Of a stretch of 32,488 nt of DNA, positions 3,326-29,755 are shown one piece after another. Location: positions 1 through 32,488 of the forward strand of contig JAUXGL010000030.1 of the NCBI GenBank assembly GCA_030622135.1, written 5' to 3'. The DNA is from Deltaproteobacteria bacterium (GTDB lineage: Bacteria; Myxococcota; B64-G9). A program made the position numbers and the translations under genes. The first letter of the stretch is position 1. Each line of letters begins with the position of its first letter. The notes under the pieces are model-generated. The model did not search any database, was not told where the DNA came from, and saw only the letters and a list, made by a program, of their open reading frames with translations.

Positions 3326-3445
3326 AGGCGGCTTGGCACTGGGCCGACTCGCGGGTGTTTGGAGACTTCAGTGAAACTCGCAAAGCTGCACCTGGTTTGT
3401 AAGTGTGACTCGGGACCGGTGGGTTTCGGCATCTCAAGTGCCTGG
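3326..3445 (+). repeat. Repeat A, copy 2 (upstream of tadC)
   Basis: This copy is in the same orientation and has the same blocks as copy 1, beginning with GGCGGCTTGGCAC and ending TCAAGTGCCTGG. The GAAACTCGCAAAGCTGCACC core is identical to copies 3 and 4. The tadC Shine-Dalgarno AAGGAG starts 3 nt after it. Confidence 0.9.
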
Positions 3446-4370: not shown

Positions 4371-4496
4371 CGCCGCATACTTCGCGGCACAAGGCCGATT
4401 CGCGGGCGTTTGGAGGCTTCGGTGAAACTCGCAAAGCTGCACCTGGTTTGTAGGTGTGACTCAAGATCGATGAATCTCAGCATCTCAAGTGCCTAG
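4371..4496 (+). repeat. Repeat A, copy 3 (upstream of the FHA gene)
   Basis: This is the most complete copy. It begins directly after the tadC stop with CGCCGC(ATACTTC)GCGGC, a small hairpin, then shows all conserved blocks. A CACCT/AGGTG hairpin around GGTTTGT lies at about 4441-4457. It ends TCAAGTGCCTAG. Confidence 0.9.
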
Positions 4497-8486: not shown

Positions 8487-8541
8487 CCGCCATTTCTCAC
8501 AATTTTTTTTGCGGTAGTCCTCGTTTCTCAACAGCCACAAA
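8483..8541 (-). repeat. Repeat B, copy 1 (minus orientation)
   Basis: Read on the minus strand this contains GGCTGTTGAGAAACGAGG, ACTACCGC, an A-rich stretch, and GTGAGAAATGGCGGTTAG. The CCGC/GCGG arms form a hairpin. It overlaps the stop codon of the upstream FHA gene. Confidence 0.75.
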
Positions 8542-8567
8542 TGAGAAATGAGGGCTGAATATGTGTA

Positions 8568-13818: not shown

Positions 13819-13877
13819 TATTTATGGCTGTTGAAAAATGATGACTACCGCAAAAATTGGTAAGAAATGGCGGATAG
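13819..13877 (+). repeat. Repeat B, copy 2 (overlaps the start of the next gene)
   Basis: It contains ATGGCTGTTGAAAAATGATG, ACTACCGC, AAAAATTGG and TAAGAAATGGCGGATAG. It matches copy 1 read on the minus strand. The ATG ATG start of the solute-binding protein and its first dozen codons fall inside it. Confidence 0.7.
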
Positions 13878-17158: not shown

Positions 17159-17209
17159 TTATTTTGTCACGAAGACGGTGGATCACCCATTATCCCAAGG
17201 AGGCCAACC

Positions 17210-17392
17210 ATGGCGAAGAAGAAGGCGGCCAAGAAGAAGGTAGTGAAGAAGAAGGTAGTGAAGAAGAAGGTGGCCAAGAAGAAGCCGGCCAAGAAGAAGG
17301 TGGTGAAGAAGAAGGTGGCCAAGAAGAAACCGGCCAAGAAGAAGGTGGTGAAGAAGAAGGTGGCCAAGAAGAAGCCGGCCAAGAAGAAATAG
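17210..17392 (+). CDS. Histone-H1-like lysine-pentad protein, 60 residues
   Basis: The ATG follows AAGGAGG by 6 nt, and a strong terminator lies downstream, so this is a self-contained gene. After MA the whole protein consists of KKKxx pentads (xx = AA, VV, VA or PA), with KKKVA-KKKPA-KKKVV as a 15-residue higher-order unit repeated three times (45 nt in DNA). It is like the C-terminal tails of bacterial histone-H1-like and AlgP-like proteins, which bind DNA without sequence specificity and compact the chromosome. There is no globular domain. Repeat number probably varies between strains because the DNA is a tandem repeat. The other reading frames through the repeat give Glu/Gly or Pro/Ser-rich translations and are not genes. 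Confidence 0.85.
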   Translation: MAKKKAAKKKVVKKKVVKKKVAKKKPAKKKVVKKKVAKKKPAKKKVVKKKVAKKKPAKKK

Positions 17393-17481
17393 CAGCGACT
17401 GAATGTGGTTGGGCCACAGGCTTTAAGCCACGAGGGCAGGAGACTACAAGAAGGCCACATAAACCAAGATGGTTGGCCCAT

Positions 17482-17610: not shown

Positions 17611-17644
17611 TCGCACGCTGAAATCGGTGAGAAATAGCGGTTAG
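17611..17644 (+). repeat. Repeat B, copy 3 (partial)
   Basis: It contains GCTGAAATCGGTGAGAAATA followed by GCGGTTAG. These 28 nt are repeated exactly at 17668-17695. Confidence 0.75.
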
Positions 17645-17695
17645 CCCTCTGCGAAACGAGGACTACCGCTGAAATCGGTGAGAAATAGCGGTTAG
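17645..17695 (+). repeat. Repeat B, copy 4
   Basis: GCGAAACGAGGACTACCGCT leads into the same 28-nt block as copy 3. ACCGCT and AGCGGT form a 6-bp stem around a 16-nt loop. It ends 22 nt before the next start codon. Confidence 0.75.
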
Positions 17696-17717
17696 CAGTA
17701 AAAAGCGAAAGGGTGTC

Positions 17718-27704: not shown

Positions 27705-27721
27705 TTGTCGCGGCGGCGTCA

Positions 27722-27848
27722 CTAGGCACTTGAGAGGCCGAGATCTTTACACTTGAGTCACACCTACAAACCAGGTGCAGCTTTGCGAGTTCCATCGGAG
27801 GCTTCCACGCCCGCGAATCGGCCTTGTGCCGAGCCGCCTTTCGGCGAG
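27722..27848 (-). repeat. Repeat A, copy 4
   Basis: Read on the minus strand this shows the same blocks in the same order as copies 1-3: GGCGGCTCGGCACAAGGCC, GATTCGCGGGCG, GAACTCGCAAAGCTGCACC, TGGTTTGTAGGTGTGACTCA and TCAAGTGCCTAG. It is 1 nt shorter near the 3' end. Confidence 0.9.
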
Positions 27849-27872
27849 GCGCTAGCCCTGGTTTTCACCGCA

Positions 27873-27922
27873 GGCTTCCACGCCCGCAAATCGGACTTGT
27901 GCCGCGCAGTTTGCGGCGCTAG
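27873..27922 (-). repeat. Repeat A, 5' half copy next to copy 4
   Basis: On the minus strand CTAGCGCCGCAAACTGCGCG is followed by GCACAAGTCCGATTTGCGGG and CGTGGAAGCC. It matches the first 50 nt of repeat A and then stops. It lies just before the amidase start. Confidence 0.75.
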
Positions 27923-27932
27923 GATTATCACT

Positions 27933-28961
27933 ATGGTATCCGTGAGCAGAAGCGCCGGGATCCTTACAACCATCATTATTGTTGGGTTTTTCCTTTTGAC
28001 TTCAGAGGTTTACGCAGGTCCAGCGGAGAAGAGGACGGGATCGTGGTTCATCGGCGCGGACGGCTTGGTCGTTGGGGTGTTTGGCAAGAAGCCACGCAGC
28101 CTGTGGGGACCCGGTCTTCCCGGAGAGGTGAACTTCAAGGGTTCTTTTGTGCCCGGTTTCCTTTCCGCGGCTCAGTGGTCTGCATTGGCCGCAAGCTGTC
28201 CCGACTGCGACGGCTGCCGGGTGCCGGTCCGGGGCCCGGGGGCCATACAGGATCGCCTGGTGGTGGTCATCGACCCGGGACACGGGGGATCCCAGCGCGG
28301 GGCCGTGGGTGTTACCGGAGTGAAGGAAAAGGACATCGTCCTTCGGGTGGCCCGGCGAGTTCGGCGGATGCTCGGAAATGCCGAAGATGTGGATGTGGTC
28401 ATGACCCGTCTGGAGGACGACGAGATTACCCTGGAGGAACGCGTAGAGATGGCCAACCTGGTCCAGGCGGACCTGTTCGTCAGCATTCATGCCAACTCCT
28501 TTTCGAGCCCAGCGCTGGGAGGCGTCGAAACGTTTTTTCATTCCATCGAGGCTTCCGGCGAGGAGGCCAGCCGGGTGGCTTCTTGCGAGAACGCGACCCG
28601 GGGCAAGAAAGGCCGGGGTGCGGCGGACGCGCTCAGCCTCATCCTGCAGGACATGCAGAGCGCGGAGAAGCTGCGCGACTCCAGCCGCCTGGCCCACCTG
28701 GTTCAAGAGCAGTTGGCCGGGGCGGTGCCGTTCGAGAACCGGGGCGTCATGCAGGCGGATTTCACCGTGTTGCGCGGCACCCGCATGCCTTCTATCCTTG
28801 TCGAGCTGGGTTTTCTGAGTAACCCCAAGGAGGAGCAGACCCTGGGGGACGCCCTGATCCAGGAAAAGATCGCCAACGCCATCCGCGAGGGTGTGCTGTT
28901 GTACTGGGAGCTGGCCAAGCGCAAGCAGGTGTCGGTTCCCCCGAAGGCGGGCGCAAGGTGA
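27933..28961 (+). CDS. N-acetylmuramoyl-L-alanine amidase (Amidase_3)
   Basis: The product is 342 residues. ATG 27933 gives a signal peptide (1-29); upstream in-frame codons run through repeat A and are excluded. After an unassigned region (30-105) comes the Amidase_3 domain: VVVIDPGHGGSQRGAVG with the first zinc His, VKEKDIVLRVARRV with the zinc Glu, LFVSIHANSF with the second zinc His, and MPSILVELGFLSNPKEE with the catalytic Glu. It cleaves the amide bond between MurNAc and the stem peptide in the periplasm, usually at septation. It is not preceded by an AMIN domain that I recognise, unlike E. coli AmiC. It overlaps rdgB by 4 nt. Confidence 0.93.
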   Translation: MVSVSRSAGILTTIIIVGFFLLTSEVYAGPAEKRTGSWFIGADGLVVGVFGKKPRSLWGPGLPGEVNFKGSFVPGFLSAAQWSALAASCPDCDGCRVPVRGPGAIQDRLVVVIDPGHGGSQRGAVGVTGVKEKDIVLRVARRVRRMLGNAEDVDVVMTRLEDDEITLEERVEMANLVQADLFVSIHANSFSSPALGGVETFFHSIEASGEEASRVASCENATRGKKGRGAADALSLILQDMQSAEKLRDSSRLAHLVQEQLAGAVPFENRGVMQADFTVLRGTRMPSILVELGFLSNPKEEQTLGDALIQEKIANAIREGVLLYWELAKRKQVSVPPKAGAR

Positions 28962-29692
28962 AAGAGCTGGAAAAACCCAAGGTAGTAGTGGCCAGCCGGA
29001 ACCGGGGAAAGATCTCCGAGTACCGGCGCATGCTAGATCAGGCGGGCTTTTCGGTGGTTTCCAGCGATCGGGCCGGGGTGGGTGATGATGTGGAGTTGCC
29101 CGAAGAGGGAGACACCTTCGAGGCCAACGCTTTTTCAAAGGCATCCGCCCTTCAGAAGATTATCGGAGGTTGGACCCTGGGAGACGACTCGGGCCTCGAG
29201 GTAGATGCCCTGGGCGGTGCGCCCGGCGTTTTCTCCGCCCGCTATTCCGGGTCACGGCAGCGAGGCTCCGAAAGGGACCGCGCCAACTACGAGAAGCTCC
29301 TTCGGGAGCTGCAAGACGTGCCGGACGAGAAGCGCACCGCGCGTTTCGTTTGCGCCATTGCCATGCTGGGCCCAAACGGTCCCGGCCGACGAAACGGCCG
29401 GGGCAAAAACGGACCTTGCCCTGGCCGTTTCATCGGCCAGGACAAAAACGGACCTTGCCGGTGTATTACCACCCGGGGGGTTTGCACGGGTCTGATAATC
29501 CGGGTGCCCAGAGGCGACGACGGTTTCGGATACGATCCGGTATTCGTAGCCGACGGGTACGATCGGACCATGGCCGAGCTGACCATGGACCAGAAGAACC
29601 GCATTTCCCACCGCGGGCATGCCCTGCGTGGGCTGGTGGAAAAACTGAAAACCCCCGATGCCGGCAGGCATCGGGGTCTGCATGGGTCGTAA
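28958..29692 (+). CDS. rdgB: RdgB/HAM1 non-canonical purine NTP pyrophosphatase with an in-frame insertion
   Basis: The product is 244 residues; the family is usually about 195-205. It starts at GTG 28958 inside the amidase TGA (GTGA). Family motifs are intact: VVVASRNRGKISEY, the metal/active-site stretch TLGDDSGLEVDALGG, PGVFSARYSG, and near the end RGDDGFGYDPVF and QKNRISHRGHAL. The enzyme hydrolyses dITP, XTP and ITP. Between AMLGPNG and the ITTRGVCTG strand, where relatives have only a short beta turn, there are about 25 extra residues encoded by a tandem palindromic element (KNGPC occurs twice). The C-terminal dozen residues are encoded by the tRNA terminator hairpin. The insertion is on a loop away from the active site in known structures, so the enzyme may still work. 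Confidence 0.9.
   Translation: MKELEKPKVVVASRNRGKISEYRRMLDQAGFSVVSSDRAGVGDDVELPEEGDTFEANAFSKASALQKIIGGWTLGDDSGLEVDALGGAPGVFSARYSGSRQRGSERDRANYEKLLRELQDVPDEKRTARFVCAIAMLGPNGPGRRNGRGKNGPCPGRFIGQDKNGPCRCITTRGVCTGLIIRVPRGDDGFGYDPVFVADGYDRTMAELTMDQKNRISHRGHALRGLVEKLKTPDAGRHRGLHGS
29381..29459. repeat. Tandem palindromic element inside rdgB
   Basis: The two units are 40 and 39 nt (29381-29420, 29421-29459). Each consists of a palindrome (CCCGGCC/GGCCGGG in unit 1; CTGGCC/GGCCAG in unit 2) plus CAAAAACGGACCTTGCC, 17 nt identical in both. The GGCAA/TTGCC ends of the second part can also pair. Confidence 0.8.
29642..29676 (-). terminator. Intrinsic terminator of tRNA-Lys, inside the rdgB 3' end
   Basis: CCCCGATGCC (29653-29662) pairs with GGCATCGGGG (29667-29676) around a 4-nt loop. 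Read on the minus strand, GTTTTCAGTTTTT follows, so this is a standard rho-independent terminator for the tRNA. Confidence 0.75.
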
Positions 29693-29755
29693 AGGATTCG
29701 AACCTTTGGCCCGCGGATTAAGAGTCCGCTGCTCTACCAACTGAGCTAACGACCC
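29683..29755 (-). tRNA. tRNA-Lys(CUU)
   Basis: The 73 nt on the minus strand form a complete cloverleaf. The acceptor stem is GGGTCGT/ACGACCC with discriminator A. The D arm is GCTC/GAGC, the anticodon arm GCGGA-CTCTTAA-TCCGC with anticodon CUU, the variable loop 5 nt, and the T arm AAAGG-TTCGAAT-CCTTT. CCA is not encoded. The rdgB stop codon on the other strand overlaps its last 10 nt. Confidence 0.97.

Follow-up and report, generated by a model that had tools for sequence, protein, structure and literature searches.

An in-frame palindromic insert in a deltaproteobacterial rdgB gene and the dispersed hairpin family to which it probably belongs

The rdgB/HAM1 gene in the window (the whole stretch of DNA analysed, 32,488 nt) carries an in-frame palindromic insert that very probably consists of a pair of units from a dispersed palindromic DNA element specific to this lineage. 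The pair would have entered the gene once the genus had diverged from the rest of its family, and would be translated as a surface loop of 26 residues. The element inserts in genes with a precise unit size (39 nt in genes), nests in the loops of its own copies and conserves its hairpin. Copies and states of the element were all read from one draft genome.

The rdgB insert and its product

Assignment of the gene to RdgB/HAM1, already made in the preliminary description, agrees with the profile searches, in which TIGR00042 scored 161.6 bits against a cut-off of 145.35 and PF01725 also matched. The two palindromes and the shared 17-nt block described there are present as well, with both copies of the block exact (Table 1). 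Shuffled sequences contained an average of 0.11 matches to CAAAAACGGACCTTGCC at three or fewer mismatches, and 0 of 100 shuffles contained two; the repeated block is not a product of chance. The two 39-nt units form a direct repeat of 79% identity, in which the hairpin of unit 1 is reversed relative to its own tail, and the palindromic region as a whole is an inverted repeat of 89% identity with 28-nt arms. Single-strand folding of this region surpassed that of shuffled sequences both as DNA (z = -5.7) and as RNA (z = -6.4). A known RNA family was rejected as an identity for the insert, an Rfam scan of the window having returned a tRNA only. Separately, a minus-strand tRNA gene (probably Lys-CTT) and a likely terminator hairpin, at window positions 29651-29755, overlap the 3' end of rdgB.

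Table 1. Positions of the rdgB gene and its insert in the window, and genes hosting type-I copies
Feature	Position	Strand	Details and basis
rdgB/HAM1 gene carrying the insert	28958..29692	+	244 aa, GTG start; ORF, TIGR00042, PF01725, PDB RdgB matches
In-frame insert	29381..29458	+	78 nt (26 codons), two 39-nt units; alignment with seven same-family RdgB
Unit 1	29381..29419	+	hairpin CCCGGCCG-ACGAAA-CGGCCGGG and tail; repeat finding, hairpin listing
Unit 2	29420..29458	+	hairpin CCTGGCCG-TTTCAT-CGGCCAGG and tail ACAAAAACGGACCTTGC; repeat finding, hairpin listing
17-nt tail block CAAAAACGGACCTTGCC, first copy	29404..29420	+	exact match
17-nt tail block CAAAAACGGACCTTGCC, second copy	29443..29459	+	exact match
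Long inverted repeat of two head-to-head hairpins	29379..29443	.	28-nt arms, 29379-29406 and 29416-29443
Type-I hosts: rdgB; DegT aminotransferase; AMMECR1			inserts sized against relatives
Type-I host: ABC_trans_aux lipoprotein			copy at C-terminus; Pfam
Type-I hosts: PilZ-AMIN protein; AMIN protein; TPR protein			Pfam
Type-I hosts: spermidine-synthase fusion; PD40 lipoprotein			Pfam
Type-I hosts: two unnamed ORFs; decayed remnant			remnant within an 843-codon frame

The insert had been proposed as a 79-bp element adding about 25 residues, three of them cysteines. Its in-frame nature stands, and its extent is corrected to 78 nt (29381-29458); alignment to same-family RdgB sequences gives an added peptide of 26 residues, PGRRNGRGKNGPC PGRFIGQDKNGPC. 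Two of the cysteines lie within the insert, and the third (codon TGT at 29462) falls outside it. CGGT was rejected as a target duplication: its flanking copies are 82 nt apart, a frame-breaking distance, and the CGGT-bounded stretch is therefore not the insertion unit. The RdgB motif residues are intact despite the insert, as the preliminary description had held. The modelled protein adopts the E. coli RdgB fold (1k7k; TM 0.90 normalised to target length), and the insert lies between strands 127-137 and 169-180, with a pLDDT of about 45-62 against mostly >94 in the remainder. In the model, the insert is a low-confidence loop at the tip of a β-hairpin.

RdgB was detected in 50 of the 58 genomes searched. 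The alignment showed the 26-residue loop to be absent from the RdgB of seven same-family genomes, each of another genus, in which the protein runs directly from ...LGPNG to the residue preceding ..RG.C.G. Six of these seven are exactly 26 residues shorter than the insert-bearing RdgB, and the seventh has five extra residues of unrelated sequence at the insert site. A same-length loop encoded by unrelated DNA, the finding that the preliminary description had set against an insertion, was not seen within the family. A wider alignment of 38 sequences was concordant, nearly every RdgB aligning without the insert, and some distant RdgBs have longer turns at this loop. Insert length was quantified against relatives in three genes, RdgB, AMMECR1 and DegT aminotransferase, giving 26, 26 and 13 residues (two, two and one units), with intact flanks in the relatives that lack the insert; in the spermidine-synthase fusion, the aligned loop was too variable for sizing the insert. 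The RdgB gene of Nitrospirae bacterium GWB2_47_37 (L163:1501-2109) carries another palindrome, CCCCCCTTAATAAGGGGGGG, in the identical loop, where it is read in frame as TPPLNKGGQGG. That palindrome is an unrelated, independent parallel case.

A dispersed hairpin family with two subfamilies

A search of the insert's own genome for the palindrome, as envisaged in the preliminary description, uncovered a dispersed family. A BLAST-type search yielded 46 matches, and the degenerate pattern CGTTTCRTCGSNCRGSRCNARANCGSAC occurs at 37 exact sites and at 63 sites with three or fewer mismatches, a tolerance at which a reversed-pattern control gave 0 sites in the same genome. These counts are lower bounds on copy number because many copies sit at contig ends. 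The exact pattern had 0 matches in 96 relatives, the relaxed pattern gave single matches only, at control level, in 57 relatives, and exact-pattern scans of genome_contigs and viral_contigs returned 0 each, in collections from which the records of this genome may be absent. The hairpin has a stem of 8 bp and a loop of 6 nt, and among 51 distinct hairpins the stem takes the forms CCGTCCG, CCGGCCG, CCGGGCG, CCGGACG and CTGGCCG. Paired cells amount to 94.6%, versus 80.0% in shuffles; four of the eight stem pairs are altered on both sides (14 distinct forms), and the covariation score was reached by 0 of 500 shuffles. At the level of sequence, this covariation shows that the stem varies by compensatory changes, the hairpin DNA evidently being what is conserved.

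Type-I copies, which have the terminal motif GGACCTYG and a tandem spacing of 39 nt, lie in at least 12 protein genes, in a stop-free frame every time. Pfam confirmed the hosts Ham1, DegT, AMMECR1, ABC_trans_aux, PilZ/AMIN, AMIN, spermidine-synthase fusion, PD40 and TPR. Coding log-odds exceeded 50 at 11 type-I loci, the twelfth being backed by Pfam, versus 0 of 29 type-II rows. Three type-I-like copies ending in CCTTGAA are non-coding (C67, C139 and C254), one of them at a contig end. The gene-borne copies use four different reading frames, yielding unrelated peptides, and only stop-free frames occur. The PGRF frame of the rdgB copy is closed by TAA in most other copies; here the codon is AAA, and the frame is open because the copy has ACAAAAA instead of ACTAAAA.

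Type-II copies have the terminal motif GCACACTTG and a tandem spacing of 40 nt, and occupy one position of a MITE-like repeat of ~215 nt with the ends ATCTCCCA...TGGGAGAT and terminal inverted repeats (e.g. L224, L234, L241). A search of the genome with the right part of this repeat gave 40 matches scored from 124 candidates. Between fixed left and right points, its copies form a ladder of 73 nt when empty, 113 nt with one unit (+40) and either 152 nt (+39 more) or 153 nt (+40 more) with two; lengths off this ladder come from copies that hold different, unrelated inserts. The extra unit sits in the first unit's loop, with TTTC^AT as the site of the 39-nt units, and nesting of a 39-nt unit at TTTC^AT was found in 12 loci, with hosts of both type I and type II. 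Taken alone, the ladder is also compatible with deletions having occurred between short direct repeats (ACACTT[AG]C); for the gene inserts, the direction is settled as gain because there are relatives without the insert. Neither terminal inverted repeats nor a target duplication of the palindrome alone was consistent across sites. The ~215-nt repeat also bears further nested inserts, CACCACAAGGGTGCAGCAAAAAACGCG and GCAGCGCTTTTTGCAGCACCCG.

The window contains other repeats. An intergenic family of ~110 nt, with inner repeats, is represented by three direct copies and one inverted copy (2329-2440, 3334-3445, 4385-4496 and 27721-27907). A short dispersed repeat, GGTAGTCCTCGTTTCTC / CGCTGAAATCGGTGAGAAATAGCGGTTAGC, lies at 8506-8542, 13820-13856 and 17616-17696, in one place as an identical pair spaced 51 nt apart, and a 15-nt coding repeat at 17196-17400 specifies a Lys/Ala/Val-rich, histone-H1-like tail.

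Spread of the element and alternative explanations

We infer that the hairpin element spreads as selfish DNA. Within the one genome examined, no insertion was seen to be recent and polymorphic. Gene copies of the element would persist only where the unit length is divisible by three, the frame is free of stops and the receiving loop or linker is tolerant, and the transposing form may be a single-stranded hairpin that an enzyme acting in trans copies or relocates. Tentatively, and with the balance of our judgement somewhat against it, we picture a self-targeting mobile hairpin: single-stranded units of 39/40 nt would enter genes as well as the loops of copies already in place, and a shift of one base in the length of the unit (from 40 to 39, or the reverse) would separate off the frame-neutral, gene-dwelling branch, which adds 13-residue steps.

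A Y1/HUH transposase is our best guess at the mobiliser, although a doubtful one. Five Y1_Tnp hits occur in the genome, two of them within frames of 317-319 aa, and intragenic REPs and subfamilies with alternative complementary stems have been described (PMC3733652); both observations speak for a REP-type repeat moved by the genome's own RAYT-like Y1 transposases. We nevertheless consider that reading rather unlikely, given that the GTAG tag is absent, a TGTC-like flank is found in some copies only, the loop measures 6 nt and no hairpin copy flanks any Y1 gene (0 of 5 in this genome), leaving no transposase linked to the element. The two RAYT-like Y1 genes, of about 318 codons, are located at L096:1498-2448 and L097:2017-2973, with no palindrome beside either. 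About as likely as the Y1/HUH route, and equally uncertain, is replication template switching or gene conversion between hairpins, which would involve no dedicated enzyme. Nesting recurs at one loop position, the hairpin of rdgB unit 1 is reversed against its tail, and microhomology to the tail flanks the DegT site and the MITE site, all in keeping with template switching, whereas the RdgB and AMMECR1 sites show little homology to the tail.

The remaining explanations fare far worse. A selected protein module (e.g. a cysteine/lysine loop), gained for function, is a very improbable account of the peptide: the frame is kept in several conserved genes, but the four frames yield unrelated peptides, conservation rests in the DNA hairpin and the loop is of low confidence in the RdgB model. 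Ordinary variation in RdgB loop length, in which local sequence slips or is tandemly duplicated with no mobile element, could accommodate the longer turns in distant RdgBs and the five additional residues of one same-family protein; it is still less probable, since copies of the inserted DNA are scattered over many unrelated loci, where they have covarying stems and the same length of 39 nt. The dispersed copies likewise lead us to reject a local duplication of rdgB sequence. An assembly artefact, a concern raised in the preliminary description, is scarcely credible: the many repeat copies at contig ends indicate that the assembler did struggle with the hairpin family, but the rdgB copy is internal to a 32-kb contig, its units differ by 21%, its frame is unbroken and inserts of equal precision occur in other, unrelated genes.

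Comparison with known systems

Palindromes that encode protein in frame are best known from Rickettsia, a group with reduced genomes. The Rickettsia palindromic elements, ~100-150 bp in length, are found in frame in protein genes (Ogata et al, 2000, 2002; reviewed in PMC10969869). By analogy, the element described here appears to be a new family working like them; the likeness, drawn already in the preliminary description, lies in behaviour (in-frame copies in other conserved genes), and no likeness in sequence emerged from an exact-pattern scan of genome_contigs (0 matches). In both systems, repeated palindromes lie in frame in unrelated functional genes and also in non-genic copies. The present element works with small, frame-neutral units and loop-targeted self-insertion. 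Unlike the ~150-bp Rickettsia elements, it is modular: its 39-nt units make up inserts that are 39 or 78 nt long (in three genes) and lengthen the protein in 13-residue steps, and four different frames are tolerated.

REP families comprise small hairpins with subfamilies of alternative complementary stems, head-to-head pairs and some intragenic copies (PMC3733652), and the present family shares each of these features. It differs in having no consistent GTAG/CGTC tag, a 6-nt loop, nesting in its own loop and no linked RAYT; unpaired GTAG at the stem end was absent from the flanks of the hairpins listed. CGTC REPs have a stem of 8-9 bp, a loop of 4-5 nt, AT pairs at stem positions 1-2, a CCA-like tail and a CGTC/TGTC tag (PMC3733652). 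The 8-bp stem, and TGTC in some type-I copies, fit this pattern, whereas the 6-nt loop and the C-G stem ends do not. The features tested place the element outside the GTAG and CGTC REP families as PMC3733652 defines them.

Palindromes of Volvox organelle DNA, hairpins of 14-79 nt (ptDNA) that are often inserted into one another and thought to be selfish (PMC2670323), occupy intergenic and intronic DNA, whereas here one subfamily inhabits protein genes. As for MITEs, the type-II copies sit inside a MITE-like ~215-nt repeat, but the palindrome has no terminal inverted repeats beyond its hairpin and can be missing from the MITE. The in-frame coding palindromes described here occur in a 4.8-Mb genome of a lineage other than Rickettsia. 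Empty, filled and nested sites coexist in this one genome with coding and non-coding subfamilies one base apart in length, so that the route by which selfish DNA turns into protein sequence can be tested directly.
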